DNA of 34,214 bases from Opitutia bacterium (GTDB lineage Bacteria > Verrucomicrobiota > Verrucomicrobiia > Opitutales > Opitutaceae). The notes under the pieces were generated by a model. That model made no database searches and was not told the origin of the DNA. It saw nothing but the letters and a program-made list of their open reading frames with translations. Below are positions 5,856 to 33,533 of this stretch, one piece after another (the stretch's first letter is position 1; each line of letters opens with the position of its first letter). Position numbers and translations under genes: made by a program. The DNA lies in contig CANHAH010000017.1 of the NCBI GenBank assembly GCA_947458705.1, positions 1-34,214 of the forward strand. Direction: 5' to 3'.

Positions 5856-6045
5856 AGGTCGAAGGGCGACGCGGCAATCCGTCTGGCTTTGATAGATCGC
5901 AGAAGAGGCGGAAGGCAACCGCAGGCACCGCTTAGGAGAATTTCTTTTTTCAAATTCAGCGTTCAGATGAAAAATCACGAGGGGCGGGGGAGTGATGGGC
6001 TTTAATCGATGCGCCGTGGATCCGGGGTATTGTACTATTCTCTAG

Positions 6046-16839: not shown

Positions 16840-19800
16840 TTATTGGGTCAAAAACGTCACGTCGCGGGAGCGCAGGCTGAGTTCGGTGGGGAGATTTTTT
16901 TCGCTTAGTTGGAGGACAAGCACGTTGGCGCCGGCCTTGGCGGTGCCGGTGAATGTCTCGCCGGGTTGAATTAATGTGCCGTTGAGCCATGCGGCTTTCG
17001 TGGGGCCGGCGAGCGAGAACGTGACCGGGCCGCCTTTCGCAGATTCGAAGCGCGTGGCGGCGAAGAGCCCGCGTGAGTTGAGAAACGATGGATAAGGCGC
17101 GGCGATGAGGTCGCGCGGCAGGGCACCGCTCACGAGTGAGAACGTGGGGATCCAGTCGGCGAGTTTCGCATCACCACGGATGACGGGCTCGATACCGATG
17201 GGTTCGTTGCCAGCGCCGATCATGTAAAGGTGCCAAAGGCGGGCGACTCCTCCTTGGGCGGCGTCGTAAGCGCCGGGGCGGCCGAGCTGGGACAGGAATT
17301 TGACTAGATCGAGGCGTTCTTCGGGTAGGAGGCTGTCGATCAAGCCAGCAGGCATGAGGGAGCCGGCGTTGGTGCGCTTGGTGATGTTTTGGGTGGCGAC
17401 GGAAACTTCCTGGTTCGCGGCGTCGCGGAGCATGACCTCGGTGGCGGTCTCGCGGGTGATCATACCGCTAAGATCGCGTCCGTCTTTGGTGGATAGGACG
17501 ACGGCGTGGTAACCCTCCTTGATTTTGGCGCCGGGGTAGAGGAGCGATTCGACGAGGTAATCGGTGGGGGCGCTGGCGCCGATGCTGGTGAGGTCAGGGC
17601 CGATGTGCGCGCCGGCGCCGCCGATGGCGTGGCAGGCGACACAGGCGAGTTCGGCGCGGCGGTAGATGCGCTCGCCGCGGGCGGCGTCGCCGGTGGCGAG
17701 GGCTTGGCGGCCGAGAGCCTGGAGTTCGACGCCGGTAAGCTGGACCTCGGAGAATGTGAGACCGGCCGCTTTGATCAGGGCTTGCACGAGGTTTTGATTT
17801 TGTCCGCCTTCGCGCGCCGGGCGGAGGCCGGCGCGGGCGACTTCGACGGGAAGTTTGATTTTGGGAACTTCGAGAGCGAGGCGGCCGCTGGCGCCGCGGA
17901 TGGCGAGCAGTTCGCGCCAGAGATTCATGGCCTCGGCTTCGACAGTGGTGGCGGCGAGGACGGTCATGACATCGGGTAGCGAGTTGGTAAGATCGGTGCC
18001 GGCGAGGGCGATGACGGCTTCGCGGCGGATAAGCGGCGAGGCAGCCGTGCGGGCAAGACGGCGAAGTTCAGCGATGACGGGCGTGCCGCCGAGTTCGCGA
18101 AGTGAAGTGAAGGCGGCGGCGCGGTCGGTAGGCGACGTCGTGGGCGCTTCTACGAGAGTGACGAGCGTCGGAGCGAGTGCCGAGAGTTTCCAAGCGCCCA
18201 CTAGAGACAGAGCCCCCGTGCGAGTCGCGGGCAAGGTGAGGAGCGAGGCCAGTGGGGCAAGCTCGCCGACGGGGACAGTTTTACGCAGACGGGCGGCGTC
18301 GTTGAGCGCGGCGAGGGCGCGGGTGGTGGCGGGCGCGTCGAAAGCGCCGGCGAGGAGCGCGTCGAAAAGCAGGCGTTGTTCGCGCGGGCTGCCGGCGGAG
18401 GCGATTAACTCGATCCAAGGGCCGGAGCCGTCACGGGGGAGTGGGCGGGTGGTGAGGAGCTGGGCGAGGACGTCGCCGGCGAGGGCGGGCTCGACGGCTT
18501 TGAGACCGAAGGCGAGTTGAGCTTCGCGATTTTGAAAACTCCACGAGCCATCGCGCACAGCGGCGAGCCAAGGCGTAGCGAGTTCGTTCATCGTGAGCCA
18601 GAGCGCGTAGTCGAGGAACGGGTCCATCGGATGGTCCAGGACCGAGAGGGCGAGCGCGGCGGCGCGGGTGGTGCCGAGTTTGCCGAGGGCGCGGACAGCG
18701 GCAAGGCGCACGCGGGGGTTTTCATCAGCGATGAGTTTTGTCAGCGGAGCGAGTGAGTCAGCGACCGGGAGTGCGCGAATGGCGGCGGCGCGGCGGTTGG
18801 CGTCGGTGGCGGTAAGTTGTTCAGCGAGGAGGGGAGCTGAGGAAAGGTTGAGGGCCTCGTGCATCCAGAGGGCTTGAAACCGGGCGAGAGGCTCGGTCTG
18901 GCGGGCGGTCCAAGCGGTGAGATCGGCGGCGACGCGGGTGGCGCCGCGCTCGGTCAGGACGCGTTTAGCCATGGCTTGGTCGTAGCTGTTAGAAGAAAGA
19001 AGGGCGTCGAGGAGCGCAGAATTTTCGAGCTGGGTAAAATCGCGGCGCGGCAGGAGCGCACGACCTTTGGCGGTGATGCGCCAGATGCGTCCGTGCTCTT
19101 TGTCGCGGCGGGTGTCTCGAAAATCGACTTCGCCGTGTTGGATGATTGGGTTGCTCCAATCGGCGAGGTAAAGCGCGCCGTCGGGCCCGAGCTTAGCGTC
19201 GAGCGGGCGGAAGCTAGAATCGGTGGAGCGCATCAGGTCGGGCAACTCGCGCGTGACGTAGGAGGAACCTTGATCGGAGGCTTTGAAACGTACGACGCGG
19301 TGGGCGCGGAAATCTGCAGTGATGAAGTCGCCCTGCCAATCGGCGGGAAAGTGCGCGCTGTGGATGATTTCTAGGCCGGAGAATTTCGGGTAATTACCGG
19401 GGCTAATGCTCGCGAGTTGGCGTCGGGCGGGAGCGAGCGTAAAGTAAGTCGCTCCGGGCACAGCCCAGCTGATGCCTTGGTAGCCGGCGCCGTCGGTGAC
19501 GAAAGATTGGCCGAAGGGATCGAATTGGTGGCCCCAAGCATTGACCCAACCGCGGTAGAAAATTTCCAGGCGGCTGTCCCGCGGATCGAAACGGAAAATA
19601 CCGCCAGCGGAAAGACGCACGACGCCGTGGGGCGTCTCGGTCTGGGTGCGCGTGTAAACGGATTGGTTGAAATAAAGTCGGCCGTCGGGACCCCAGCGGA
19701 GCGTGTGGACGTTGTGGTGGGTGTCCTCGGTGCCGAAGCCGCTGAGGACGATGCGACGTTGGTCGGCTTTGCCATCACCGTCAGTATCGCGTAAGTGGAG

Positions 19801-21126
19801 GAGTTCTGTACTTTGAGCGACGTAGACCCCGCCATCGCCGGGGGCAATGCCGGTGGGGATGAGCAAGCCATCAGCGAAAACGGTGGCTTTGTCAGCGCGG
19901 CCGCCGCCGGTTGTGTCTTCAAGAATGATGATTTTGTCAGAGGCGGCCTGACCAGGCTCGATCTGCGGATAGACCTCGGAGCTAGCGACCCAAAGACGGC
20001 CTTGCGGGTCGAAGTTCATTTGGATCGGTTTGTTGAGCAGTGGATTTTCGGCCCAGAGGGTGACCTCGAGGGCATCGTCGACGGTGAACGACGGGATCGG
20101 TTGTGGCGTGGATTTAGTGACGAGGTTACCGACGCGTAGGGGAGTTTCTGGTACTGCGGCGGTGGCTGCGGGGTCGAAGGTGCGCAGGCGGGCGATGCGG
20201 GCTTCTTCGGCGGCGATGAAGGTATCAAACTTAAGGACCTCGACGGCATTTTGACCCTGCTCTTTTTTGCGGAAGCCAAAAATGTAAGCCATATTGGCGG
20301 GACGGGAGCGGTGGAAAAACCACTCGTTTTTGCGGAGAATGGCTTGGCGGAGCGGTTCGGTGGCCGTGCTGGTGCGCCACGCGCCGGCGGGACCGGCCGC
20401 GCGCTCGGCGCCGAAGAGAAAATCCTCGAGGGCGAAGGCGGCGGCGCGGTAGCCGGAGTTGTTTAGATGGATGCCGTTATCGGTGAGGGTAGCCACTTTG
20501 GTGGCGGTCTGAGTGAGCGCGTCGAAGAGCGAGAAGAACGGGAGATGGCGCGCGGCGGCGATTTCGCTAAGACTGACCGAGAGGCGCGCGAGGGTGGCGT
20601 TGTGCGCGGCGGCGGTTAAGTCGGAACCGCTGGGGTTTTCGTGGGGCGTGGGGCTGAGCAGGACCAGGCGCGCGGTCGGGGCGAGTTTAGTGAGGGTGTC
20701 GAGCAGGCGGGTGTAATCGGCTCGGAATTTCTCAGTGCCGGCGGGGCCGTCGAAGGAGTTGGCCATGCCGTAGCCGACTAAGATCACGGTGGGGCGGGCT
20801 TCGGTGATCTGTTGTTGGAGCTGGATCCAGCCTTCGTCGGCCGGCTCGCGGCCGGCTTGCATGAGGCTGAGGCCGGTGCGGGAGGTGCCAGTGGGGGTGT
20901 CGGCGCTCCAACCTAGGTTACGGAAGGTGACATTGCGATCGGCGGCGCGGGCGGTCAGCATGAGCTCGAACCAGCCGTGGTATTGTTCGCGCTCGATGAG
21001 GGTATCGCCGAGGAAGACGACGCGGTCACCGTCGCGAAGTTCGAGGCGCGGCGCCGTAGAGTCGGCGGCGCGGGCGGTGGTCAGGGCGAGGATTACGAGC
21101 AGGGCGGAGCGGAGGAGTGAGCGCAT
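16840..21126 (-). CDS. PVC-type cytochrome fused to an N-terminal SGNH-like domain
   Basis: 1428 residues with a signal peptide (MRSLLRSALLVILALTTARA). Domains in order: an SGNH/GDSL-hydrolase-like domain (about 25-245), a sugar-dehydrogenase-type beta-propeller with DGDGKAD loops (about 350-680), and HEAT-like alanine-rich repeats (about 740-1090). Next comes a cytochrome c domain with heme motif CVACH at 1162-1166 and distal Met in SLMPAGL, and last a short beta-rich C-terminal tail (about 1290-1428). In the SGNH domain the expected GDS nucleophile is GDT (residues 40-42) and the DxxH Asp is Asn217 (DNGIH), so ordinary esterase activity is doubtful. Such fusions are typical of the PVC group; the donor oxidised is unknown. 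It precedes the esterase gene by 6 bp. Confidence 0.83.
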   Translation of the reverse strand: MRSLLRSALLVILALTTARAADSTAPRLELRDGDRVVFLGDTLIEREQYHGWFELMLTARAADRNVTFRNLGWSADTPTGTSRTGLSLMQAGREPADEGWIQLQQQITEARPTVILVGYGMANSFDGPAGTEKFRADYTRLLDTLTKLAPTARLVLLSPTPHENPSGSDLTAAAHNATLARLSVSLSEIAAARHLPFFSLFDALTQTATKVATLTDNGIHLNNSGYRAAAFALEDFLFGAERAAGPAGAWRTSTATEPLRQAILRKNEWFFHRSRPANMAYIFGFRKKEQGQNAVEVLKFDTFIAAEEARIARLRTFDPAATAAVPETPLRVGNLVTKSTPQPIPSFTVDDALEVTLWAENPLLNKPIQMNFDPQGRLWVASSEVYPQIEPGQAASDKIIILEDTTGGGRADKATVFADGLLIPTGIAPGDGGVYVAQSTELLHLRDTDGDGKADQRRIVLSGFGTEDTHHNVHTLRWGPDGRLYFNQSVYTRTQTETPHGVVRLSAGGIFRFDPRDSRLEIFYRGWVNAWGHQFDPFGQSFVTDGAGYQGISWAVPGATYFTLAPARRQLASISPGNYPKFSGLEIIHSAHFPADWQGDFITADFRAHRVVRFKASDQGSSYVTRELPDLMRSTDSSFRPLDAKLGPDGALYLADWSNPIIQHGEVDFRDTRRDKEHGRIWRITAKGRALLPRRDFTQLENSALLDALLSSNSYDQAMAKRVLTERGATRVAADLTAWTARQTEPLARFQALWMHEALNLSSAPLLAEQLTATDANRRAAAIRALPVADSLAPLTKLIADENPRVRLAAVRALGKLGTTRAAALALSVLDHPMDPFLDYALWLTMNELATPWLAAVRDGSWSFQNREAQLAFGLKAVEPALAGDVLAQLLTTRPLPRDGSGPWIELIASAGSPREQRLLFDALLAGAFDAPATTRALAALNDAARLRKTVPVGELAPLASLLTLPATRTGALSLVGAWKLSALAPTLVTLVEAPTTSPTDRAAAFTSLRELGGTPVIAELRRLARTAASPLIRREAVIALAGTDLTNSLPDVMTVLAATTVEAEAMNLWRELLAIRGASGRLALEVPKIKLPVEVARAGLRPAREGGQNQNLVQALIKAAGLTFSEVQLTGVELQALGRQALATGDAARGERIYRRAELACVACHAIGGAGAHIGPDLTSIGASAPTDYLVESLLYPGAKIKEGYHAVVLSTKDGRDLSGMITRETATEVMLRDAANQEVSVATQNITKRTNAGSLMPAGLIDSLLPEERLDLVKFLSQLGRPGAYDAAQGGVARLWHLYMIGAGNEPIGIEPVIRGDAKLADWIPTFSLVSGALPRDLIAAPYPSFLNSRGLFAATRFESAKGGPVTFSLAGPTKAAWLNGTLIQPGETFTGTAKAGANVLVLQLSEKNLPTELSLRSRDVTFLTQ

Positions 21127-21519
21127 CGGGGAAGGGGTGGCTGGAAAAACTTAAACGAGATTTTCCGCATGGACTGTAACGAGCAAGGCCTTGTTTACGC
21201 CTAGTCGCGCCTCAGCAAATAATCATCGGTTTACAAAGTAAGTATGCTGTAAGACTAGACTTTGAGAGGTCACGGCCTCGGGTTCATGCAGCTTATGGGT
21301 AATGGGATCCGTGATTTCTGCAACGCTACGAAAGCTGAAGCCTTGGAGACTTACTTACCTATCTTGGGTTGATCGAAAGGTGGTCTGCCAATCCTGCGCT
21401 ACTTTTTTGACTAAGGAGGATAACCCAGAAACGGCCCGTCTGCGTCTCAATGCGTCGCAATCGAGTAGCGACTCCATGACCCCGCTCGATTCCACGATAA
21501 TTTTCATATTTTCCCTGCT
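21127..21519. other. 393-bp gene-free region between divergent operons
   Basis: This spacer separates the minus-strand SGNH/PVC cytochrome gene from the plus-strand MFS operon. A plus-strand open frame covers 21302-21523 but has poor codon character, except for its last 15 codons, described separately as a possible leader peptide. The only strong signal is the bipartite motif at 21420-21448. The rest, with AT-rich patches near 21210-21260, probably holds the promoter of the cytochrome gene, but I cannot place it. Confidence 0.5.
21420..21448 (+). promoter_or_regulatory. bipartite motif ATAACCC-N14-TGCGTCTC, copy 1 (ECF-promoter-like)
   Basis: ATAACCC at 21420-21426 and TGCGTCTC at 21441-21448 are separated by exactly 14 bases. 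The AAC-containing left part and the CGTC-containing right part, 16 bases between AACCC and CGTCTC, fit the general layout of ECF-sigma promoters (-35 with AAC, -10 with CGTC). It points at the MFS/CoA-transferase/lyase operon, whose first codon is 72 bp downstream. Two further copies with identical spacing lie near the sigma/FecR/receptor genes. Confidence 0.55.
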
Positions 21520-21523
21520 TTGA
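21476..21523 (+). CDS. possible 15-residue leader peptide coupled to the MFS gene
   Basis: ATG 21476 opens a short frame, MTPLDSTIIFIFSLL, whose TGA overlaps the TTG start of the transporter gene in a TTGA junction. It lies just behind the bipartite motif. The transporter start is a weak TTG without a visible Shine-Dalgarno, so ribosomes finishing this peptide could re-initiate there. The peptide itself has no recognisable family and has only a weak ribosome site (GAGTAGCG). Confidence 0.3.
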   Translation: MTPLDSTIIFIFSLL

Positions 21524-22797
21524 ACCACCCCATTATCACTAAAGTTGCCTGGCGGCTGATGCCCACCATCATCATCTGCTATTTTTTCGCATACTTTGAT
21601 CGCATCAATATCAGTTTTGCTAAGTTTCAGCTGCAGGACGCTCTAACCTTGAGCGACACAGCCTACGGGCTAGGGGCGAGTCTCTTCGTCATCGGTTATG
21701 TGATTTTTGAAGTCCCGAGCAATATGCTGCTTTACCGATTCGGTGCACGAAAGTGGTTGGCGCGAATTATCATTTCCTGGGGGTTGGCTACGGCGGCAAT
21801 GGTGTTTGTTCAAGCCACGTGGCAGTTTTATGCACTGCGCTTTTTAATCGGAGCGATGGAAGCGGGATTTGCGCCCGGTGTTCTGTACTACCTTACCACG
21901 TGGTTTCCTGCCAGCCATCGTGGCCGCATCACGGCGTTACTTTTTTTGGCGCCTGCATTCTCGGGATTAATAGGCAGTCCGCTCGCGGGTTTGATTCTTC
22001 AAAAATCCGAGGGACTGATGGGTTTGTCGGGTTGGCACTGGCTGTTCATAAGTGGTGGCCTGCCCTGTGTGCCGCTTGGGTTGTTAGTACTGCGCGTACT
22101 GAAAGATAAAGTGGAGGATGCGCCTTGGCTCGACGGCGAAGAAAAGCGCTGGTTGATCGAGCATATTCGCCAACAACATTCAGGGGTCCGGGAGAAATCT
22201 TTCCTCGAGGCGATCAAGACCCCTGGATTCATCGCTCTCGCGGTGGTCTACTTTCTAGTGCAGGTGGGATCTTACGGGCTTAATTTTTGGGCGCCCCACT
22301 TGATTCGCACTGCCGGTGTAACGGATGCTTCGACGATGGGTCTTCTGGTTGCCGGACCTTATATTTGCGGTGCCATCGCCATGGTTGTGACCGGACGCTG
22401 GGCTGATTCGGCGGGCCAGCGACACCACGTATTGGCCGGCTTGCTCGTGATTGCCGCGATCGGTTTTGCGGCGTGTGGAATCTTTGATCATAGCCTCGCG
22501 ATTCTCGTCGTCGCGTTAGCCTTCACGGGACTCGGAATGGTCGCGGCGATCCCGGCATTTTGGTCTCTGCCGCCAAAATTGGCGACGGGAGTAGGGGCTG
22601 CTGGAGGTATTGCCCTGATTAACACGTTGGGGCAAATGGGTGGAATTGTGAGCCCTTACATGGTCGGCAGGATTCGCGACCTCACCGGCAGTACCACCCC
22701 TGCGCTCTATGTTATTTCGGGTGCCCTACTGTTGGGTGCCGGCGTGGTTTCATTTCTGCTCCCGCTGGGTCTACGATCGAAAGAGAGGGCCGAATGA
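21520..22797 (+). CDS. MFS transporter, anion:cation symporter (ACS) type
   Basis: 425 residues with 12 hydrophobic segments. The TTG at 21520 is the only start upstream of the first helix, because an in-frame stop lies at 21466 and no ATG or GTG follows it. The N-terminus (ITKVAWRLMPTIIICYFFAYFDRINISFAK) has the YxDRxNI motif of the ACS family. The loop between helices 2 and 3 carries RFGARKWLARI, and FEVPSNMLLYRFGAR is characteristic of ACS permeases for tartrate, phthalate, hexuronates and related organic anions. It overlaps the CoA-transferase gene by 4 bp (ATGA), which in turn overlaps the lyase gene. The transported compound is therefore likely the acid that those enzymes activate and cleave. 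Sits in the cytoplasmic membrane; proton- or sodium-driven import is expected from the family. Confidence 0.87.
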   Translation: MNHPIITKVAWRLMPTIIICYFFAYFDRINISFAKFQLQDALTLSDTAYGLGASLFVIGYVIFEVPSNMLLYRFGARKWLARIIISWGLATAAMVFVQATWQFYALRFLIGAMEAGFAPGVLYYLTTWFPASHRGRITALLFLAPAFSGLIGSPLAGLILQKSEGLMGLSGWHWLFISGGLPCVPLGLLVLRVLKDKVEDAPWLDGEEKRWLIEHIRQQHSGVREKSFLEAIKTPGFIALAVVYFLVQVGSYGLNFWAPHLIRTAGVTDASTMGLLVAGPYICGAIAMVVTGRWADSAGQRHHVLAGLLVIAAIGFAACGIFDHSLAILVVALAFTGLGMVAAIPAFWSLPPKLATGVGAAGGIALINTLGQMGGIVSPYMVGRIRDLTGSTTPALYVISGALLLGAGVVSFLLPLGLRSKERAE

Positions 22798-24035
22798 GCC
22801 TAGTCGACTCGCTCTGCCCATCATTATCGTCTCCCGCGCTACTTCAAACTCAGGCCCTCGCTGGAGTCCGCGTGGTGGAAATGGGGCAATTGATTGCGGG
22901 TCCTTTTGTTGGCAAAACTTTAGGTGAATTCGGGGCTGAGGTCATCAAAATCGAGCCTCCGATTAACGGTGACCCCCTCCGGCAATGGCGTCTCATCGAG
23001 GGCGGCACGTCTCTTTGGTGGCAGGTGCAGTCGCGCAATAAGCAATCGCTCGCGCTTGATGTGCGGACCGCCCAGGGTCAGGAAATTGCCCGGCGGCTGA
23101 TCGGCGAGTGCGATGTGTTAATCGAAAATTTTAGGCCCGGCACGATGGAGAAATGGGGGCTGGGTTGGGATGTGCTTCAAGCTATCAACCCCGGCCTGAT
23201 TATGTTGCGGATATCCGGTTATGGACAGACCGGTCCCTATCGCGATCTTCCGAGTTTTGGCGCCATCGGGGAAGCCATGGGCGGGCTGCGCCACCTTACC
23301 GGTCAACCCGGACAGATTCCCGTGCGCTGCGGCATCTCCATCGGGGACACGTTGGCCGCATTACACGGCACCATCGGCGTGCTCATGGCTTTGCACCATC
23401 GTAAGGTGAACGGAGGCGCCGGCCAAGTCATCGACGTGGCCTTGCATGAGTCGGTCTTCAACGCGATGGAAAGTATGCTGCCCGAATACAGCGCGCGTGG
23501 GGTCGTGCGTGCGCCCGCTGGAAGTGCCCTGCCAGGGATCGCTCCCTCCAATGCCTATCGTTGCCAGGACGGCGTGGTGCTGATTGCTGGCAACGGGGAT
23601 GCGATTTTTACCCGCCTGATGAGCGTGATTGGCCGCGACGATCTCGGTCGGCGTCTGGATCTTGCCTGCAATCAAGGCCGCGTAAAAGCGGCCCTCGAAC
23701 TCGACGAGGCGATCGGTGAGTGGACGCAGCGCCACACGGTCGCCGAAGTCCTCGCGCAGATGGGCGCGGCCAGTGTGCCGGCTGGAAGAATCTACGACAT
23801 CGCAGACATTGCAAAGGACCCGCATTATCAGGCGCGCGACATGATTCTCAAACAACATACGCGCCAGGGATTCGACGTTGAGGTGCCGGGTATTGTGCCG
23901 AAGTTGCTCACCACTCCAGGCGCAATCCGCTCACCGGCACCCGTGCTCGGCGAGCATACTCAGAGTATTCTTCAAGGCCTTGGTTTCACGGATGAACAGC
24001 AAGCACAACTTAAGGCCGAGGGAGTCATCGCATGA
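22794..24035 (+). CDS. family III CoA-transferase (CaiB/BaiF)
   Basis: 413 residues. The fold signatures are VRVVEMGQLIAGPFVGKTLGEFGAEVIKIE at about 25-54 and RNKQSLALD at 81-89. The catalytic aspartate is D185 in GISIGDTLAALHG; it forms the aspartyl-CoA anhydride. Family III enzymes move CoA from a donor, often succinyl-CoA, to an organic acid in the cytoplasm. The next gene is an HMG-CoA-lyase homologue, so the acceptor is probably a 3-hydroxy acid that can be split after activation, such as 3-hydroxy-3-methylglutarate or (R)-citramalate. It resembles the human SUGCT type only at family level, so the substrate is inferred. Both junctions (ATGA at 22794 and at 24032) indicate translational coupling within a three-gene operon. 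Confidence 0.87.
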   Translation: MSLVDSLCPSLSSPALLQTQALAGVRVVEMGQLIAGPFVGKTLGEFGAEVIKIEPPINGDPLRQWRLIEGGTSLWWQVQSRNKQSLALDVRTAQGQEIARRLIGECDVLIENFRPGTMEKWGLGWDVLQAINPGLIMLRISGYGQTGPYRDLPSFGAIGEAMGGLRHLTGQPGQIPVRCGISIGDTLAALHGTIGVLMALHHRKVNGGAGQVIDVALHESVFNAMESMLPEYSARGVVRAPAGSALPGIAPSNAYRCQDGVVLIAGNGDAIFTRLMSVIGRDDLGRRLDLACNQGRVKAALELDEAIGEWTQRHTVAEVLAQMGAASVPAGRIYDIADIAKDPHYQARDMILKQHTRQGFDVEVPGIVPKLLTTPGAIRSPAPVLGEHTQSILQGLGFTDEQQAQLKAEGVIA

Positions 24036-25003
24036 ACCCCTGGAGTGGCCAGGCAAGGATGGTTCATGTGCAGGAGGTGGCGTTGCGCGACGGCTTGCAA
24101 AGCGAGGCCACCTTCGTGCCGACCGATGAAAAAATTAAATTGATCGACCGGCTCGCGGCGAGCGGGCTTAAAAAAATTGAAGTCAGTTCTTTGGTTTCGC
24201 CCCGCGCAGTCCCGCAACTGGCCGACGCCGAGGCGGTGCTCCAAGGAATCACCCGTCTACCTGGAGTGATCTATGCAGCGTTGGTGCCTAATGTCCGCGG
24301 CATGGAGCGGGCTATCGCCGCCCGAGCCGATGAGGTGAACTTGGTGATGTCGGCCAGCGAGAGCCACAATCGCTCGAATCTGCGCATGTCCTGTGACGCC
24401 TCGTTTCATGCTATTAAGGAAGCGGCTTCACTTGCCGCCTCCGCGGGACTGAGGGTCACCGCGTCCCTTTCGTGCAGCTTCGGCTGCCCGTTCGAAGGCG
24501 AGGTTGCAGCTGCTACGATTTCGATGTGGTGCCGACGCTTGCAGGATGAGGCGGGCATCCGGTCGATTAGCCTGTGCGACACGACGGGCATGGCTTATCC
24601 GGCGCTAGTCCAGGATCTGGTCGGACTGATTCGTCGAACTTATCCAGCGCTCAACTTGGCGCTCCATTTTCACAACACGCGGGGACTCGGTCTTGCCAAT
24701 GTTTTCGCAGGCCTTGATGCTGGTGTGATCCATTTTGACGCCGCCTTGGCTGGGATTGGCGGTTGCCCGTATGCGCCAGGAGCCACCGGAAATATTTGTA
24801 CCGAGGATCTGATCCACGCGCTGGAGGTTTCCGGCTACCGGTGTGGGGTAAATTTGGATGCGTTGATTGAGACGGCTGCAGATTTGGAAAAACTCCTCGG
24901 CCATACGACACCGGGCCAAGTGATGAAGGCGGGTCGGCGACTGGGAGGGCATGTCGACGACAAACCCCGTTTTGTAGATGCAAAGCCAATCTTAGACAGG
25001 TAG
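24032..25003 (+). CDS. HMG-CoA lyase family protein (HMG-CoA or citramalyl-CoA lyase)
   Basis: 323 residues with every known catalytic group of 3-hydroxy-3-methylglutaryl-CoA lyase: R19/D20 in ALRDGLQ, the SSLVSPRAVPQ stretch near 52-62, H212 and H214 in HFHNTRG, C245 in GIGGCPYAPGATGN, and N254. It forms a DRE-TIM metallolyase barrel that uses a divalent metal. HMG-CoA lyase yields acetyl-CoA and acetoacetate; the related (R)-citramalyl-CoA lyase yields acetyl-CoA and pyruvate. From memory, the Chloroflexus (R)-citramalyl-CoA lyase belongs to this superfamily and is encoded beside a succinyl-CoA:citramalate CoA-transferase. That gene order is the same as here, so either activity is possible. 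The start overlaps the CoA-transferase stop (ATGA). It is likely cytoplasmic and ends the operon. Confidence 0.87.
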   Translation: MNPWSGQARMVHVQEVALRDGLQSEATFVPTDEKIKLIDRLAASGLKKIEVSSLVSPRAVPQLADAEAVLQGITRLPGVIYAALVPNVRGMERAIAARADEVNLVMSASESHNRSNLRMSCDASFHAIKEAASLAASAGLRVTASLSCSFGCPFEGEVAAATISMWCRRLQDEAGIRSISLCDTTGMAYPALVQDLVGLIRRTYPALNLALHFHNTRGLGLANVFAGLDAGVIHFDAALAGIGGCPYAPGATGNICTEDLIHALEVSGYRCGVNLDALIETAADLEKLLGHTTPGQVMKAGRRLGGHVDDKPRFVDAKPILDR

Positions 25004-25120: not shown

Positions 25121-26647
25121 ATGACCCCCTCCGTCGCCGTTTCCAGAGTTCGCCTTGTTGGCCTGTTTTCCGGTTTTATAGTATTTGCTCTGCTGCTCTG
25201 GGGCTGGGGTGGGCCGGCGGATCGCCCGCTGGTCGGCGCGATGGCTGCCGTCGCCGCGCTCATGTCTATTTGGTGGATGACCGAGGCCGTGCCTTTGGCC
25301 GTCACCTCGTTGCTTCCATTGGTGCTATTTCCGCTGCTTGGGCTCGGTGATGTGCGCCGCACCCCGCAGAACTATTTTAACGAGATTATTGTACTTTATC
25401 TTGGTGGTTTCTTCATCGCACTCGCGATGGAGCACTGGCGGCTTCACCAGCGTATCGCCCTGGGCTTTCTTAACCGCATGGGTTCGAGCCCGGGTTCCGT
25501 CTTGGCTGGTTTCCTCCTCGCGACCTCTTTGTTGTCGATGTGGATTTCCAACACCGCTACCGCGATGATGATGCTCCCCATCGGCCTGGCGGTCGTCCTG
25601 AAGCTTGAAGACACCTTTGGCAGCGCTCGCGCCCGCCCGCTTGCGCTCGGCCTGATGCTCGCCATCGCCTACGGTTGCTCGATCGGCGGCATGGCCACGC
25701 TTGTCGGCACGCCGACGAACTTAGTGTTCCTGAAAATCTATCGCGACATGTTCCCTTCCGCTCCGCCGGTCGCTTTCGGCGAGTGGATGTTCTACGCCAC
25801 TCCGCTGGCCGCCATCTTGCTGGCCGCCACCTGGTTTTTGCTCGCGCGCGTTTTCTGCCGCTGCGATACCTCGCTACGGCTTGATCGCTCGGTCGTGCGG
25901 GCTGAACTCGAGCGTCTTGGCCCGATGCGCTTCGAGGAAAAAGTCGTCGGCACTCTCTTCATTGTCGTGGCTCTGCTTTGGGTTTTCCGCAGTGATCTCA
26001 ACCTCGGCCTGTTCACCATCCCCGGCTGGAGCCGGCTGCATCCCGCGCTGGCCGCCTTGGACGACGGTTCTGCCGGACTGCTCGTTGCCTTCTCGCTATT
26101 TTTCATTCCGTCTCGCTCCGAACCTGGCCGAGCGTTGCTCGACGGCGCAACTTTCGCCAAGATTCCCTGGGATGTCTTGTTGCTGCTGGGTGGCGGCTTT
26201 GCCCTTGCCTCCGGCTTTGTCCCCAGCGGACTTTCCGAATACCTAGCCAATGCGCTGCGCGACTTCGGCCATCTACCGGCTTTAGCGATTCTGGTTCTGG
26301 TTTGCCTGCTGATTACTTTCCTCTCGGAGCTTACATCCAACGTGGCCACCGCCACCATGTTTCTTCCGGTGATTGCCGCTTGGGCCGTGGCCGAGCAGAT
26401 CAACCCGCTCATGCTAATGATCCCTGCCACTATAGCGGCTTCGATGGGCTTTATGCTTCCGGTCGCCACTCCGCCCAACGCCATTGTCTTCACGAGTCGA
26501 CGCGTGCACATCGCCGAGATGGCCCGCGTCGGCTTGGCGCTCAATCTGATTGGCGTTATCGTCATCTCAGCTTATTCCAAGTGGATCTTGCCTCTGATAT
26601 TCCGTTTCGACCCGACGATCCTCCCGGTTTGGGCCGCATCTAAGTGA
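25121..26647 (+). CDS. DASS/SLC13-family anion transporter
   Basis: 508 residues and about 11-12 hydrophobic segments. The two pseudo-symmetric SNT-type motifs that bind sodium and the carboxylate are present: SNTATAMMMLP near residues 143-153 and SNVATATMFLP in the second half. Each is followed by its partner loop, GTPTNLVF and ATPPNAIVF. An N-terminal WWMTEAVPLAVTSLLP segment is also typical. DASS proteins import C4-C6 dicarboxylates or sulfate, most using sodium. It follows the HMG-CoA-lyase-family gene by 117 bp on the same strand and may bring in or recycle a dicarboxylate such as succinate made by the CoA-transferase reaction, but it could be a separate unit with its own promoter. ATG 25121 fits the first helix. 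Confidence 0.87.
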   Translation: MTPSVAVSRVRLVGLFSGFIVFALLLWGWGGPADRPLVGAMAAVAALMSIWWMTEAVPLAVTSLLPLVLFPLLGLGDVRRTPQNYFNEIIVLYLGGFFIALAMEHWRLHQRIALGFLNRMGSSPGSVLAGFLLATSLLSMWISNTATAMMMLPIGLAVVLKLEDTFGSARARPLALGLMLAIAYGCSIGGMATLVGTPTNLVFLKIYRDMFPSAPPVAFGEWMFYATPLAAILLAATWFLLARVFCRCDTSLRLDRSVVRAELERLGPMRFEEKVVGTLFIVVALLWVFRSDLNLGLFTIPGWSRLHPALAALDDGSAGLLVAFSLFFIPSRSEPGRALLDGATFAKIPWDVLLLLGGGFALASGFVPSGLSEYLANALRDFGHLPALAILVLVCLLITFLSELTSNVATATMFLPVIAAWAVAEQINPLMLMIPATIAASMGFMLPVATPPNAIVFTSRRVHIAEMARVGLALNLIGVIVISAYSKWILPLIFRFDPTILPVWAASK

Positions 26648-26801: not shown

Positions 26802-28277
26802 TTACTTTTTCTCCCGATAAACCACACGTCCATCCACATCATGCAGGCGAAGCTCAAGGCTTGCGCCGCTGAGGCTAGGGGTGATCACACCCGATAAGAA
26901 TCCGCCCTGTCCGGTGCGCAGAAAGCGATGCTCGGGACGTGGCGATTTCTCCTCCCAACCGCCGGCATGGCTTACACTCGTAGGCCCGACACTCCACTCA
27001 TTGACCGAAGTTGCGGGGTCTACCGAAACATACTGCCAGTGTCGATCGCCGGTGATCACGGTGAGATTGGGGTAGCGTGCTAGTAACTCGCGAACCTCTT
27101 TTCCTTCCACGGCGAAGCCGACATTCGCGTAGTTGTCGTCCTTGTTGCTTCGGTCTGGGCCTACCACGGGTACGGTGGTGAGGATCACGCGAAAGGTGGC
27201 GGTGGAGGCGGCCAGCGTTTCGCTAAGCCACTTGATTTGATCGCGACCCCAGAGGGTCGGTGAGGGCCCCGGATTCTCCGCCCAATCTGGGGTGCGGTAA
27301 TCCCGACCTTCCATTAGCCACACCTGCAAATCGCGCCCCCAGCGGAACGTCCGACTGGCCTTATCGGGCAATACCGTCTGTTCACGGAACAACCGCACGC
27401 CCTCTGCGTAGGTCAATTCTCCACTGCGCGTCGCTGGCCCGCAGTCGTTGGAGAGAATATCGTGATCATCCTTCATGAAGAAGCTGCTGTAATTGCGGTG
27501 AAAATCACGTAGGGTCGGCAGGGCAAACATCCGCGCCCAATGATAGCGGGCCAAGGCAGGGGTCAGCGCGATCACGGGTCCATGGTCGTAGTAGACGGCA
27601 TCTCCTGTGTTCACAAAAAAGTCCGGTTTTAATGCTCCCATCGCGGGGTAAATCGCCAAGCCATCGGGGCGGTCCAAGTGCTCGTATTGTTGGCAAGTCA
27701 TCACGCAAAACGTGACGGGCCCGCGGTGCTCGGGCAGCGGAGCGGTTTTGAATTCACCTGGCTGATCATCCGTCTGTTTATCATCCGCGCTGCTTCGAGC
27801 CTGCACCACGACTTCGTACAGGGTGCCTGGCGCGATCGCCGAGAGGGCATGCACGGCAATGCCATCGTGCTCAAGTTGGGCACTCTGCCAGGGGGTTTGC
27901 GACCACGCGGTCGTACCTTTCGGGCGGAAGCGCACCCGAGTCTGGCCCGAAGTGGCGGGCGCGCCGCCCGCCGCGCCGCCGAGGTCCATCCCCTCGGGCA
28001 TTTGCACGACGACGCGGGTATCCGGAAACGCTCGGTTCTCCCGTAAAGGCACGAGTTTTCCGCTCGTCTTATCGAAAGCCTCGACCCGTGGTAATGGAGC
28101 ATCGGCTGGATTTGCCGCTGCGCGCAACGTGACACGGGTCCAGATATCGGCGGCGGTTGAGGTCACATTAACGACCTTGAAACCGGTGGCCTGGTGTACC
28201 TCTGCGGCCAAGGTAGGCCAGGCCAGTCCAAGCGTCAGAACAATGAGCAAATGAAACGGACGCTTGGAATTTTTCAT
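26802..28277 (-). CDS. exported PhoD-like phosphodiesterase/alkaline phosphatase
   Basis: 491 residues with a signal peptide (FHLLIVLTLGLAWPTLAAE). An N-terminal immunoglobulin-like part is followed by the calcineurin-type metallophosphatase domain of PhoD. Metal ligands are visible in order: VNTGDAVYYD, the KDDHDILSNDCGP block and ITGDRHWQY. PhoD enzymes are periplasmic or secreted and cleave phosphomonoesters and phosphodiesters; they typically use calcium with iron, but this cannot be read here. The gene begins 12 bp after the TonB-dependent receptor on the same strand and is the last of a sigma, FecR, receptor, phosphodiesterase array. The natural reading is that the receptor imports a phosphorylated compound or the hydrolase processes what the receptor takes up. 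Confidence 0.85.
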   Translation of the reverse strand: MKNSKRPFHLLIVLTLGLAWPTLAAEVHQATGFKVVNVTSTAADIWTRVTLRAAANPADAPLPRVEAFDKTSGKLVPLRENRAFPDTRVVVQMPEGMDLGGAAGGAPATSGQTRVRFRPKGTTAWSQTPWQSAQLEHDGIAVHALSAIAPGTLYEVVVQARSSADDKQTDDQPGEFKTAPLPEHRGPVTFCVMTCQQYEHLDRPDGLAIYPAMGALKPDFFVNTGDAVYYDHGPVIALTPALARYHWARMFALPTLRDFHRNYSSFFMKDDHDILSNDCGPATRSGELTYAEGVRLFREQTVLPDKASRTFRWGRDLQVWLMEGRDYRTPDWAENPGPSPTLWGRDQIKWLSETLAASTATFRVILTTVPVVGPDRSNKDDNYANVGFAVEGKEVRELLARYPNLTVITGDRHWQYVSVDPATSVNEWSVGPTSVSHAGGWEEKSPRPEHRFLRTGQGGFLSGVITPSLSGASLELRLHDVDGRVVYREKK

Positions 28278-28289
28278 GGAGAGCGGGTC

Positions 28290-31200
28290 TTAATGTGACC
28301 AATTGACGCCAAACGTCCAGAGCGAGCCATACTTGGTGGTTTGAAAAAACCGGGCGTTACGCGGTGTGCTGGGGCCGTAGATTTCCGTCGTGGCTCCTTG
28401 GTCGGTGACGTTGCGCAGATTGGCATAAATGGAGAGGTTCTTGCGCAGGTTGTATTCGCCAATTACGTCCACGAAGGTAGAGGGCGGCTGCCAATTAAAC
28501 GTGCCAGGCTCGATGCTGGCCCCCGCCGTCACCGCGTTTAAGCGCGTGCGGCCGCGATGATTCGCATTTACCCTCAGGTTATATTTTTCGCGGGTAAAGC
28601 TGAGCCCGGCACTGCCGCTGCGTGGAATATAGCCGGCGAAGTTTCCGCCCGTATCGCCCACCGCGCGTTGGGAGGTGCCGTTGGCGAAGACCTCGAAACC
28701 TCGGGCCCAATGAGGCAGAAAGGTAAGGCTTTGGCGGTAGTTGAAGCTTACGCCCTCGAAGCGCACGGTGCCCGGAATATTGAATTGGGTCGAAACCCCA
28801 TAGCGGCCATAGGCGTTGGGATCGAGACCGTAGGAGGCGAGAAATTCGGGGGTGGCGGCTTGTACAGTGCTACCAAAGAAATTGCGTACGTCGCGACGAA
28901 ATGCGGCTACCGACACGACACCGACGCCTTGGAAATAATGTTCGAGACGCAGGACGAGCGACTTGGCGGACCACGGATTGATATCGACGTTGTTGACGAT
29001 GATCCGGTTTGTCGCGCTGTCGCCGGCGCTGGTATCGGGCAAAGTTAGGCCGCCGGCATATTGATTATAATCCGGCCGACCGATGGACTCGTAGGCGGCG
29101 ATCCGCCCGATCAAGTTTTCCCGGATGGAGTAACTTGCGTTGAGGCTTGGGAAGAGTTTTTCGTAGGTCTTTTCAATCGAGGAGCCGCGCTCGATCCCGT
29201 TGGCGCTTTTCTTGGGATCGGTCAGCGGCCCCTGGGCTTGAACGGTGGTTTTTTCTCCGCGCACCCCGGCGACGATCTTCAGGCGTTGGTCGAGGAAATC
29301 GAAATCGGTGCGCAGGTAAGGAGCCATGACCTGTTCGCGGGCAAACTTGGAGGTCGCCACGCGGTTGCGCGCGATCGTGTTGGCGTTGGTGGTGAAATAG
29401 GTCGGCTGAGCCTTGTAGTGCTCCCACACCTTACGATTGCTGGGGGCCTCCGAGGCTGGAAATCCGTAGGGCATCACGCGCTGCGAAAAAACGGGATCGT
29501 AAAATGGCGCGAGTGAATCATCGCCGGTGAGGGGTGTGGTGCTGGCGACGCGGTCTGCGCCCACATAGTTGTAGGTCGCCGAGTCGTCCGTGATATCGCG
29601 CACCCCTTCCTGAAGATTGAATCCGGCCTTCAACGTCACCGGAATGCTCGTCGGAAGCTTCCGGCTGACACTGCCGTAGGCGGTCTTTTGCGTGTCGTGG
29701 GTGGCGTTCTGCTGGCTCGCCGCCGAAGTGAGGGCATAGTTGGAGATAAGGTAAGGATTCACGTCGGCACCGGCCGTATTCTTCACCGTGATTGCGCCGG
29801 GACGCAGGTAGGTGACGTCGTCAAACGACACCGTCAGGCCGGTGCGAGTCGCATTCACCGCGCGGAAATATCCTTGGTTGGTATCATGGTTATCATCCGT
29901 GGCGGAAGAGTAACCCAAGCCTAGGTCGGCCTTCCACTCAGGGCCCTGGTGTTTCCACACCACGCTCGGCATATAGGTACGATTGAAGCGATTTCGTTCG
30001 TTGTGGATCATCGAAACGTTGCCCGCTCCGGCGGTCCCGCGGACGAAGTTCGAGGAGAAGCCGCCGGGCTGAACGCCGCCGGGGTTGAACGTGAGCGAAT
30101 GTAGCGCGAACTGCACATCGAAGGAGGAATAAAGGAAGCCCACGGAAACGCGGTCGTTGTCCGACAACTTGAAGTCCATGGATCCGGCAAAGGATTTACG
30201 CTCCGTGATCTTGGGCTGATCTTCCACGCGGTAGGCCGACAAATAGGGCTGCGAAAATGCCGTGGCGGGGAAGGCGGTGCCGGCGGTGGCGACGCCCGTG
30301 CCGCGCCAGGTGGCCTGCACGCGATCCTGTGCTGAATAACTCGTGGAGTCACCGGCCGACAGAGAGAAGCCAAATTTCTTATTTACCGGCGCGGAGTAGG
30401 AGAAATCGAATCCCGGATAAATGTTGCGCGTCGAGTTTGGTTTGGCCCCTGGAGCCTTGCTGAAACTCTTGGCGTTGTCGCGCATGCTCAAATAGACGTT
30501 GGACTGGAACAAGGGTTTGGCGCGCTCGAAGGAACTGCGCGTTACCATGTTCACCGTGCCGGCGAGCGCGGACGCGGGAGACTCGGGCGTGGGAGTGTTA
30601 AGGACCTCGATGCGCGAGAGGTTGTTGATCGAAACCATGTCCGCCATGACGGTGCGATTGGTTTTACCGCCGTCAGCGGAGGCGAGATTGAAGCTGTCGA
30701 TCGTGACCGGCACATAGTCGGACGGCACGCCGTCGATCGAGATGCCCCGGGCGTTGCCGCCGGTGTAGCTGATCGTGATCCCAGGCAGAAATTTCAAAAA
30801 CTCGGCCGTGTTGCCTTCGGCTACGTTACCAAACTGTTCGGTCGAAACGACCTGCTTGATGTTGGGCGCGAACCGCTGCTCGTTAATCGCCAAGGCTGAG
30901 GCGTCCATCTCGCGCGAGGAGGAGACCTGAAATTCAGCCAACTGCACGACCTCGCCGCTGTTTTTGGGTGGCACGCCCAGCGCTATGCTGAGCTCGGTGG
31001 TCTTGCCCGCCGAAATTTCAACGGAGCGCACATCGCGCGGCAGGCCCGTGTAGAAGGTCTGCACCTTCACCGCGCCCGTCGGCACCTGCGTCAGGCGGAA
31101 ATTACCCTCGGCGTCGGTTAGGGTCACCAACCCAGTGCCTTCGATGGAAATACGTGCCCCCTCGACGTACAAAGCGCTACGCTCGTTGAGAACTCGGCCT

Positions 31201-31706
31201 TGGAGTGTGCCGGTAATTTCTGAGTTAGCCGGCCCCTGGGCTTGGACGGTGGATGCGGTGATGGCGAACCATACTCCGAGGATACTGAAGACGTTTGGTT
31301 TTTTCATGGGGGATTCTTGAGAATTTTTTTTAGCGGTCGGTGTTTGGGTGGATTTAGATTTTGCGGCAGGAGCGCCTTCGTTCCCCGTCCGGTTTATCAT
31401 CAAAGCGCCGGACTTGGCGTCTTCCGCGAGGACGAGTCCGGTGTCGGCGATGAGCAGCGTGAGTGCCTCCTGTACCGTATACGCGCCTCGCACGGCATTA
31501 GTCGTGATGCCGCGTACGGCATCGACTAAAAATACCACCTGGCGCCCCGATTCATCGGCAAAACGCTTCAACGTGCTGGCGGCATCGCCGCGCGCGAGGT
31601 CGAAGCTTTTGCGCGCTGTTTCCTCGGCTTGGGCGGGCGCGCAGGCGCAGGCCAAACAAACGACGGTCACGACGGCAGCCGAACCGGTGGGGATAAGGGG
31701 TTTCAT
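28290..31706 (-). CDS. TonB-dependent transducer-type receptor with STN domain
   Basis: I place the start at ATG 31706 (1138 residues), which gives a good signal peptide (MKPLIPTGSAAVVTVVCLAC). The frame opens at 31772, but the extra 22 codons run through a copy of the bipartite motif. Domains: STN signalling domain (about 28-105), a Lys/Ser/Thr-rich linker, a second signal-like stretch beginning MKKPNVFSILGVWFA at 134, and a carboxypeptidase-like regulatory domain (about 166-245). A TonB-box-like VVQLAEFQVSSSRE, a plug with ISIDGVPSDYVPV, and a barrel ending in FGVNWSH complete it. The STN domain passes ligand occupancy to FecR, as in the fec paradigm. The FecR and sigma genes lie directly upstream and a PhoD-like gene 12 bp downstream. 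Ligand unknown; a phosphorylated compound is suggested by the last gene. Confidence 0.87.
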   Translation of the reverse strand: MKPLIPTGSAAVVTVVCLACACAPAQAEETARKSFDLARGDAASTLKRFADESGRQVVFLVDAVRGITTNAVRGAYTVQEALTLLIADTGLVLAEDAKSGALMINRTGNEGAPAAKSKSTQTPTAKKNSQESPMKKPNVFSILGVWFAITASTVQAQGPANSEITGTLQGRVLNERSALYVEGARISIEGTGLVTLTDAEGNFRLTQVPTGAVKVQTFYTGLPRDVRSVEISAGKTTELSIALGVPPKNSGEVVQLAEFQVSSSREMDASALAINEQRFAPNIKQVVSTEQFGNVAEGNTAEFLKFLPGITISYTGGNARGISIDGVPSDYVPVTIDSFNLASADGGKTNRTVMADMVSINNLSRIEVLNTPTPESPASALAGTVNMVTRSSFERAKPLFQSNVYLSMRDNAKSFSKAPGAKPNSTRNIYPGFDFSYSAPVNKKFGFSLSAGDSTSYSAQDRVQATWRGTGVATAGTAFPATAFSQPYLSAYRVEDQPKITERKSFAGSMDFKLSDNDRVSVGFLYSSFDVQFALHSLTFNPGGVQPGGFSSNFVRGTAGAGNVSMIHNERNRFNRTYMPSVVWKHQGPEWKADLGLGYSSATDDNHDTNQGYFRAVNATRTGLTVSFDDVTYLRPGAITVKNTAGADVNPYLISNYALTSAASQQNATHDTQKTAYGSVSRKLPTSIPVTLKAGFNLQEGVRDITDDSATYNYVGADRVASTTPLTGDDSLAPFYDPVFSQRVMPYGFPASEAPSNRKVWEHYKAQPTYFTTNANTIARNRVATSKFAREQVMAPYLRTDFDFLDQRLKIVAGVRGEKTTVQAQGPLTDPKKSANGIERGSSIEKTYEKLFPSLNASYSIRENLIGRIAAYESIGRPDYNQYAGGLTLPDTSAGDSATNRIIVNNVDINPWSAKSLVLRLEHYFQGVGVVSVAAFRRDVRNFFGSTVQAATPEFLASYGLDPNAYGRYGVSTQFNIPGTVRFEGVSFNYRQSLTFLPHWARGFEVFANGTSQRAVGDTGGNFAGYIPRSGSAGLSFTREKYNLRVNANHRGRTRLNAVTAGASIEPGTFNWQPPSTFVDVIGEYNLRKNLSIYANLRNVTDQGATTEIYGPSTPRNARFFQTTKYGSLWTFGVNWSH

Positions 31707-31731
31707 CAACAGGAGCAGGGTGAGCGTCTTT

Positions 31732-31760
31732 GAGACGCAGCGGCGGACGAAACGGGTTAT
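31732..31760 (-). promoter_or_regulatory. bipartite motif, copy 2, before the FecR-linked receptor
   Basis: On the minus strand ATAACCC (31760-31754), 14 bases, TGCGTCTC (31739-31732). It lies between the FecR stop and the receptor ATG at 31706, pointing at the receptor, the position of the fecA promoter relative to fecR in the E. coli model. Its right half also forms a small inverted repeat (GCGTCT-CAA-AGACGC, 31724-31738). Confidence 0.55.
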
Positions 31761-31799
31761 TCGGGCGCGCATGATTTTTTCCGCCGGTCTCAGCCCAGC

Positions 31800-32855
31800 T
31801 TAGTGTTTGGCGCGCAGGACTACGGTCGTCTCACTCTGCCGCTCGACGGCGATGCTATTGCCGCCCTCGAGTAAGCGAATGAAGCCCTCGACGTTGTCGG
31901 CAGCGAAGGTGCCTCCGACGGGACGCTCCGCGAGCGTGGGGTCGCCGAAGATAAGCTGGACGCGGTTGCGGCGATTGAACTGGGCGACGACTTCCGAGAG
32001 CGGAGTCTCGGAAAACGCTAGCTTGCGCTCCTGCCAAGAGAGCGCGTCGCGGACCGTCGCGGGCGCGATCTTCTCCACAGCGGGAGCGGACGGCGTGGGG
32101 TTAGCAAGAGAAGGCAAGTTGACGAGGGTGCGTTCGTTGGCGACGACGTAGGTGGTTGAGGCGGGCGATGAACGTGCGTGGGGGACAACGCGCTCCACCT
32201 CGGCGACTGAGACTTTGCCCTCGGTGACCAGCACTTCCACGGCAGTGGGGGCGAGGCGGACATTAAACGCGGTGCCGACGGCGCGCACGGCGACGCCGCC
32301 GGCGGAAACGATAAATGGCCGCGTGCGATCGTGGGCGACGGTGAAGTGGGCCTCGCCGGCGACAAGTTCTACGCGGCGGTTCGTGGGCATGAGCACAACG
32401 CGCACCTTGGTTTCAGCATTGAGTTCGATGACGGATCCATCGGCGAGGGCGACGCGTTCATAACCACCGGTGGACGTCGTGAAGACCTGCGCCGCCGAGC
32501 CTGATGGCGGAAGAAACGGCATGAGGGTGAGAAACGCGACGGTGAGGGCGGCGGCGATGCCGAGGGCGACGCGCAGTGGCCTAAGATTGCGCCGGGCCGC
32601 GCTGACTGGTCGGCCCGGGCGAGCGGCCACAGGAAATGCGATGACGGGTTGCAGTTCGTCGCGCACGAGGGGCATTTTCTCCAGCAGCGCACACGCCGCT
32701 TCGAGTCGCGCGACGGCGGCGGCGTGGCGGGGGTCGGCGCGGCACCAGCGTGCAAACTCTTTTTTTTGCGCGGAAGAAAAACCCTCGGCGCGGAGCGTTA
32801 GCCAATCGGCGGCGGCTTCCTCGATGGGATCTTCGTGGTCGAGCGAGTCGTTCAT
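31800..32855 (-). CDS. FecR-family anti-sigma/sigma regulator
   Basis: 351 residues. The N-terminal cytoplasmic part (about 1-90) has the FecR-type helical motif AADWLTLRAEGFSSAQKKEFARWCRADPRHAAAVARLE, which contacts the sigma factor. One membrane helix lies at about 93-114 (LRVALGIAAALTVAFLTLM). The periplasmic FecR domain follows (TTSTGGYERVALADGSVIELNAETKVRV ... GEAHFTVAHD ... GTAFNVR, about 118-215). At the C-terminus is an STN-like module that would meet the receptor (LAFSETPLSEVVAQFNRRNR). Its start overlaps the sigma-factor stop by 4 bp (ATGA), and the TonB receptor follows. By the fec paradigm it receives the receptor's occupancy signal across the periplasm and controls the sigma factor. 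Confidence 0.88.
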   Translation of the reverse strand: MNDSLDHEDPIEEAAADWLTLRAEGFSSAQKKEFARWCRADPRHAAAVARLEAACALLEKMPLVRDELQPVIAFPVAARPGRPVSAARRNLRPLRVALGIAAALTVAFLTLMPFLPPSGSAAQVFTTSTGGYERVALADGSVIELNAETKVRVVLMPTNRRVELVAGEAHFTVAHDRTRPFIVSAGGVAVRAVGTAFNVRLAPTAVEVLVTEGKVSVAEVERVVPHARSSPASTTYVVANERTLVNLPSLANPTPSAPAVEKIAPATVRDALSWQERKLAFSETPLSEVVAQFNRRNRVQLIFGDPTLAERPVGGTFAADNVEGFIRLLEGGNSIAVERQSETTVVLRAKH

Positions 32856-33433
32856 GCGGTGTCTGCTGCTTGAGAGGGAATAGCGGCGTCCATTAGGCCA
32901 CGGGCGGCAAAGAAGGCGGCGCAGCGGCGCATGCCTTTGGCCATATGGACTTTTACGGTCTCGGGCGAGATGCCGAGTTGGTCGGCGATTTCCTTGTAGG
33001 CGAGGCCGTCGAGGTAGCGCAGCATAATGACTTGGCGGCAGCGGTCCGGCAGGGCGCGCACGGCCTCAGCGAGGACTTCGAGTTCGTAGCGTTGGTCGAG
33101 GGCTTCGGCGGCACTGGGCTGGGCGTCGAGGACGACGAGCTCGGCGCGGTCGTTGATTGATTCGGTGGGGTGGGCGCGGCGACGGCGGAAGAGATCGAAG
33201 GCGGCGTTGCGGGCGGCAGTGAACAGGAAGGCCTTCGGGTAGCGCACGCCGCCGGTGTCTTTAGCGCGGAGTAGGCGCGTGTAGGTTTCCTGGACCAGAT
33301 CGTCGTGATCAGCGAGGGTGGGGAAGCGAGCTTGGAGGTAGGCACGCAGGGCCGGTTCATGGGGATGAACTTCCTTGGCAAACCAGTGGGCTTGTTCGGT
33401 CGGTGGCATGGGGTGATGCGCGGCCATGGGCAT
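32852..33433 (-). CDS. ECF sigma factor (FecI-like RNA polymerase sigma-70)
   Basis: About 193 residues. Region 2 is seen as LADHDDLVQETYTRLL (about 40-55) and KAFLFTAARNAAFDLFRRRR (68-87), the -10 recognition helix. Region 4 is LPDRCRQVIMLRYLDGLAYKEIADQLGISPETVKVHMAKGMRRC (129-172), a helix-turn-helix for -35 binding. The absence of regions 1 and 3 marks it as an ECF-type factor. Three in-frame starts lie close together (GTG 33436, ATG 33433, ATG 33427); the GGGGTG stretch suits ATG 33427 or 33433. It is encoded directly before FecR with a 4-bp overlap and is presumably held or activated by it. Its target is likely the receptor promoter (bipartite motif at 31732-31760). Confidence 0.9.
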   Translation of the reverse strand: MPMAAHHPMPPTEQAHWFAKEVHPHEPALRAYLQARFPTLADHDDLVQETYTRLLRAKDTGGVRYPKAFLFTAARNAAFDLFRRRRAHPTESINDRAELVVLDAQPSAAEALDQRYELEVLAEAVRALPDRCRQVIMLRYLDGLAYKEIADQLGISPETVKVHMAKGMRRCAAFFAARGLMDAAIPSQAADTA

Positions 33434-33504
33434 CACCCCGGGATTTCATACTGTCGAGGGCATTTTCGGCTGAAACGGAATTCGGAAACTATTTCGCGGC
33501 GCGG

Positions 33505-33533
33505 ATAACCCGAAACGTTAGACGGTGCGTCTC
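33505..33533 (+). promoter_or_regulatory. bipartite motif, copy 3, between sigma and sulfatase genes
   Basis: ATAACCC at 33505-33511 and TGCGTCTC at 33526-33533, again 14 bases apart. It lies in the 175-bp gap between the sigma gene and the sulfatase, both on the minus strand, but points to the plus side, away from the sigma gene and into the antisense of the sulfatase 3' end. If active it would make an antisense transcript; alternatively it is a repeat with another role. Confidence 0.45.

Follow-up and report, generated by a model that had tools for sequence, protein, structure and literature searches.

A bipartite repeat as the probable promoter of a small FecI-type sigma-factor regulon that includes a catabolic operon in Opitutaceae

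A stretch of 34,214 nucleotides from an Opitutia bacterium, referred to here as the window, carries three copies of the two-part repeat ATAACCC-N14-TGCGTCTC near genes for a FecI-like sigma factor, a FecR-like regulator and a TonB-dependent receptor, and before a catabolic operon. Are these repeats promoters of the sigma factor, in which direction are they read, and which genes might they serve? A pattern scan of the window returned three copies with zero mismatches each, on the same coordinates and strands as in the preliminary description of this DNA, which had read them as extracytoplasmic-function (ECF) promoters linking surface signalling to acid catabolism. None of 100 dinucleotide shuffles of the window contained a match, a zero that overstates the significance because the pattern was picked post hoc, after reading the sequence; a rough calculation of ours puts the figure for any bipartite 15-base triple in 34 kb at about 0.01. 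The relevant features are the following.

21400-21408, plus strand: A/T box of copy 1 (TACTTTTTT), upstream of the -35, putatively UP-element-like
21420-21448, plus strand: copy 1, candidate promoter, with the -35 ATAACCC at 21420-21426 and the -10 TGCGTCTC at 21441-21448
21520-22794, plus strand: MFS transporter, anion:cation symporter-like, TTG start
22794-24032, plus strand: family III CoA-transferase
24032-25000, plus strand: HMG-CoA-lyase-like enzyme with RDGLQ, HxH and GGCP motifs
25121-26644, plus strand: DASS-family anion symporter, the fourth gene downstream of copy 1
26805-28277, minus strand: PhoD-like phosphatase, directly downstream of the receptor gene
28293-31772, minus strand: TonB-dependent receptor with an N-terminal STN signalling domain; a start at 31706 is likelier than one at 31772
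31732-31760, minus strand: copy 2, candidate promoter at the fecR/receptor junction, facing the receptor gene, whose ATG 31706 follows after 25 nt
31774-31780, minus strand: A tract of copy 2 (AAAAAAT), counterpart of the A/T boxes, upstream of copy 2
31803-32855, minus strand: fecR-like sigma regulator
32855-33436, minus strand: fecI-like ECF sigma factor, region 4.2 helix SPETVKVHM
33485-33495, plus strand: A/T box of copy 3 (GAAACTATTTC), within a conserved block upstream of fecI
33505-33533, plus strand: copy 3, the same element, about 95 bp upstream of fecI and pointing outward

The sigma factor and its regulator were assigned, with the sigma-70 region 2 and region 4 and the FecR Pfam matches above their cut-offs and fecI adjoining fecR. 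The likely start of fecI is ATG 33409, and CCCATGCC[AC]CC is conserved. The genome that holds the window (2.91 Mb in 198 contigs, about 81% complete) contained no exact copy of the motif beyond these three, none with one mismatch, and three with two mismatches. At up to three mismatches, 62 matches were counted versus 72 for a reversed control, which leaves no room for a wider, diffuse family of similar sites in this genome, and a genome-wide regulon of near copies was rejected. Matches scattered inside genes, named in the preliminary description as evidence against promoters, were not seen in the genome scan.

Related genomes, whose comparison the preliminary description had proposed, were searched for exact copies. 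The 252 genomes of the family yielded 45 matches, spread over four genera and 24 genomes, compared with 3 for the control; these counts are inflated because sequences within a genus are not independent. Nearly all matches fell at the positions seen in the window, namely in front of the CoA-transferase operon, at the fecR/receptor junction and just upstream of fecI. This conservation settles the objection that a pattern chosen post hoc might be a product of chance. Alignments covering 10, 16 and 18 genomes showed 97-100% identity in the half-sites and 66-87% in the 14-base core. Identity was lower in the flanks, dropping to 39% at their outermost positions, but stayed at 72-85% downstream of copy 2 and upstream of copy 3, as would be expected of coding sequence and of a fecI promoter region, respectively. 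Most named relatives with a closely similar fecI are metagenome-assembled genomes of Opitutaceae or Opitutae. In G226, a copy precedes a DASS transporter gene, which in turn lies ahead of fecI-fecR. A second site in G135 (L067:6049) was considered as a receptor promoter read backwards and rejected, since it adjoins a truncated fecI remnant; it appears to be a duplicated copy 3. The remnant, a truncated fecI N-terminus (MPPSEQTRWFAEEA..., L067:6171-6335), lies next to this duplicated outward site and ahead of a receptor gene.

Two conserved boxes at a fixed promoter spacing, the second of the CGT type, support an ECF-type promoter with ATAACCC as the -35 half and TGCGTC as the -10 half. The spacing is AAC-N18-CGT; in many ECF promoters it is 1-2 bp shorter. 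An A/T box (for example GAAACTATTTC or ACTTTTTTC) is common to copies 1 and 3 about 10 bp upstream, and the A tract of copy 2 occupies a similar place; these elements may resemble UP elements.

The direction of the element and its link to the sigma factor emerged from paralogous FecI systems, which are 50-63% identical and carry other -35 letters (CTAACCC, ATCCCCC, CTAGGTC, CCAGGTC and others), always N14 before TGCGT. Upstream of fecI, a relaxed motif pointed outward in 39 of 58 loci and towards fecI in 0 of 58; at the fecR/receptor junction, it pointed towards the receptor in 22 of 53 and backwards in 0 of 53, with reversed-sequence controls giving one match for each region. The two sites of one locus agree in their -35, with 13 mismatches observed versus 58 expected, and without the ATAACCC group 12 versus 37 (p=5e-5, by permutation tests that ignore phylogeny). 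The -35 also follows the FecI recognition helix: KVH occurs with AACC, KGH with GGTC or GGCC, KT[QH] with CCCC and KSH with C[AC]CC. By the residue x of KxH in region 4.2, V was paired with ACC 23 times, G with GG[TC] 13 times and T with CCC twice. The other FecI copies found in the window genome have different helices. Region 4 of sigma factors contacts the -35; the covariation of ATAACCC and its counterparts with region 4.2 thus identifies this half as the -35 and the forward reading as the right one.

A natural exchange of the sigma factor provides a further comparison. On one contig of the genome G233 lie the receptor (74% identical), the phosphatase, the lyase, the CoA-transferase and the MFS transporter (the last three 78-83%), together with a fecI only 56% identical, whose helix is SEHTVKAQL. 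All three sites of G233 read RTAGCCC-N14-nnCGTCT: ATAGCCC-N14-TTCGTCTA outward of fecI, GTAGCCC-N14-TTCGTCTG at the junction and ATAGCCC-N14-ACCGTCTC before the MFS gene. A paralogue in the window genome shares the SEHTVKAQL helix and was predicted to use the G233 motif; its sites are GTAGCCC-N14-TCCGTCTA and ATAGCCC-N14-TCCGTCTG. Covariation, natural swap and confirmed prediction together indicate that -35 specificity is set by region 4.2 of the cognate sigma factor, and the ECF-promoter reading of the preliminary description gains support from the conservation and from this covariation of both sites. Since the site before the operon has moved with the sigma factor, G233 also offers the strongest evidence for the claim, made there too, that the MFS/CoA-transferase/lyase operon belongs to the regulon.

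Copy 1 lies 71 nt before the TTG start at 21520, and in 10 genomes of three genera its -35 and -10 are 100% identical. Orthologues of the CoA-transferase were found in 12 of the 252 genomes, 11 of them with the exact motif (p=5e-12); the twelfth is G233. Only a remnant of the MFS gene is left in G010, G211, G238 and G240, and no more than its first codons can be recognised in G008 and G009; all six genomes have kept the promoter, which now faces the CoA-transferase gene. Assignment of copy 1 to the 1428-aa GDSL/DUF7133 gene on the opposite strand was rejected, as this neighbour is replaced in G010 and the distance of 71-72 nt to the MFS start persists. The window encodes two large DUF7133/HEAT/cytochrome c proteins (2844-5978 and 16840-21126), one of them fused to a GDSL lipase domain, near genes for sulfatases, Gfo/Idh/MocA proteins and an aldo-keto reductase.

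The lyase passes the cut-off of NCBIfam NF004283, and its RDGLQ, HFH and GGCP motifs align with solved HMG-CoA lyases, with the catalytic Arg/Asp, HxH and Cys present. The CoA-transferase matches several family III specificities (SUGCT, formyl- and oxalate-CoA transferases) and passes no NCBIfam cut-off. Judging from these assignments, the operon might serve the uptake and CoA activation of 3-hydroxy-3-methylglutarate or a similar branched hydroxy-dicarboxylate, followed by cleavage to smaller CoA thioesters. A family III CoA-transferase next to an enzyme of the HMG-CoA-lyase subfamily with its catalytic motifs is also the arrangement of the SUGCT and HMG-CoA lyase route, unlike which the transferase here matches several specificities and the substrate is putative. 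In the literature on HMG catabolism, we found only a growth study of the bee gut.

Copy 2 would fall inside the open reading frame if the receptor started at ATG 31772. We favour ATG 31706 as the likely start for two reasons. Several paralogues have no start codon a short way upstream, and their translation must begin at the site corresponding to ATG 31706; and this ATG, which follows the -10 by 25 nt, begins a good signal peptide. Conservation of copy 2 as mere protein sequence was considered and judged less likely on two grounds: L131, L132, L141 and L144 have no nearby start, and the -35 changes with the sigma helix. The frame across copy 2, reading ITRFVRRCVSG or similar, is open in all loci, and ATA accounts for 9 of 181 Ile codons in the window genes. 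Nucleotide constraint at copy 2 is more likely than protein conservation. Comparative evidence bears out the view that copy 2 occupies the position of a fecA promoter, a sigma-type promoter being present at the fecR/receptor junction. The phosphatase is presumed to belong to the receptor operon; the order of the two genes is conserved in related genomes.

The receptor belongs to the TonB-Xanth-Caul subfamily, and its Pfam STN match is below the cut-off. In the predicted structure of its N-terminal region, residues 51-120 have pLDDT values of about 80-89 and the rest is low; the predicted domain matches the signalling domains of FpvA, FecA, PupA and PupB. This modelled STN fold completes the FecI/FecR/transducer set. 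The signal peptide and STN domain (about 150 aa; window 31206-31706) are conserved before quite different TonB receptors (L066:394-3495, L068:8870-11563, L070:3-1229), several of which keep a second, internal stretch resembling a signal peptide (MKKPNVFSILGVWFAITASTVQAQ in the window), as though STN had been joined to receptors that were already complete.

Copy 3 has no obvious mRNA target. It points away from fecI in every genome and is not placed as a fecI promoter would be, and no forward gene follows it in the window. In the ATAACCC group, the gene nearest to it is usually convergent, and there is mostly no forward gene. Some paralogous loci have an outward gene, for a sulfatase (L134, L149 and, by sequence, L137), a BNR-repeat protein (L162) or a HAD acid phosphatase (L186). 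Copy 3 could be a relic of a lost divergent target, the source of an untranslated transcript, or an element acting on fecI; as a mere relic it would hardly be so strictly conserved. Tentatively, and with less than even confidence, we suggest that copy 3 is a conserved outward sigma promoter, retained although it has no gene to drive, and that it works as a regulatory device on fecI itself: bound holoenzyme would cover the conserved fecI-upstream block, or an antisense or short transcript would feed back, giving feedback without conventional autoregulation. The block, AAATAGTTTC...CCGAAAAT-N-CCCTCGACA (window 33401-33495), is conserved across genera in 18 loci; it overlaps the A/T box of copy 3, and the fecI promoter probably lies within it. 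The CTAACCC and CCAGGTC groups (L133, L134, L137, L149 and similar) have a conserved GGNGGCAGGCG immediately after the outward -10, possibly as part of a transcript leader.

Could the repeat be the binding site of an ordinary DNA-binding activator or repressor rather than a sigma promoter? Orientation would then be irrelevant, which would explain why copy 3 is reversed upstream of fecI, and copy 2 might lie within coding sequence. However, the orientation was violated in 0 of 58 loci, the half that stays constant is a CGT[CT] box of ECF-like type and lies at promoter spacing, and the half that varies follows region 4.2 in the linked sigma factor, as the natural swap and the correct prediction also show. 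We regard such a site as improbable. Reading the element backwards, with GAGACGCA as -35 and GGGTTAT as -10, would turn copy 3 into an autoregulated fecI promoter with a natural target, and ECF sigma genes usually autoregulate (PMC3817407), whereas those of the FecI type are reported not to do so (PMC9249621, PMC3817407). Copies 1 and 2 would then face antisense fecR or different genes in different genomes, the half varying with region 4.2 would be the -10 rather than the -35, and forward genes do follow in G226 and in the sulfatase-flanked loci, which makes backward reading slightly less probable still.

The post hoc pattern and the mere three copies genome-wide might also suggest a chance repeat, or shared ancestry only, with three unrelated sites chosen afterwards. 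Half-sites conserved in four genera despite diverging flanks, and the concerted change in G233, leave this extremely improbable.

The three repeats are very probably promoters of one small regulon of the FecI-like sigma factor. A ligand on the STN-domain receptor would signal via FecR to FecI, whose holoenzyme would read ATAACCC by region 4.2 and TGCGTC by region 2 and start transcription just downstream of TGCGTCTC. Copy 2 would drive the receptor and the PhoD-like phosphatase, copy 1 the MFS, CoA-transferase, HMG-CoA-lyase-like and DASS-transporter genes, and copy 3 an outward transcript beside fecI. The sequences themselves show the motif, its conservation, its direction and its co-evolution with FecI; promoter activity, ligand and substrate are inferred. 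Surface sensing appears to activate not just uptake but metabolism too.

As in Escherichia coli FecI/FecR/FecA, the order is fecI-fecR-receptor, the receptor has an N-terminal signalling domain, and a sigma-specific promoter lies between fecR and receptor with none of its own type towards fecI. Unlike in the E. coli system, a promoter is also found at a distal catabolic operon and an outward site beside fecI, and the receptor differs from FecA in its subfamily. An iron-carrier substrate and Fur control are defining for the iron branch of surface signalling only. E. coli FecI has been described as controlling a single promoter (PMC9249621). The iron-starvation box of Pseudomonas PvdS, TAAAT-N16-CGT (PMC2235872), is likewise a two-part ECF promoter with a TAA-containing -35, a CGT -10 and similar spacing, and PvdS also activates genes beyond the receptor; here the element is TAACC-N17-CGT with a G+C-rich -35, and no siderophore genes are nearby. 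PrhA/PrhI/PrhR is a FecI/FecR/transducer set for a non-iron purpose (mentioned in PMC1790865); PrhA senses plant contact, whereas the extra target here is a catabolic operon.

Our literature search found no paper combining Verrucomicrobia, ECF sigma, FecR and TonB. A large survey of ECF promoters left out FecI-like sigma factors since they do not autoregulate (PMC3817407), and few of their promoters are therefore known. The comparative data provide promoter sequences for several FecI types of Opitutaceae and a simple relation between recognition helix and -35, including a natural swap. They support a FecI-type sigma factor that would also serve a catabolic operon and keep an outward promoter beside its own gene, and suggest that surface signals can induce a breakdown pathway along with the outer-membrane importer.
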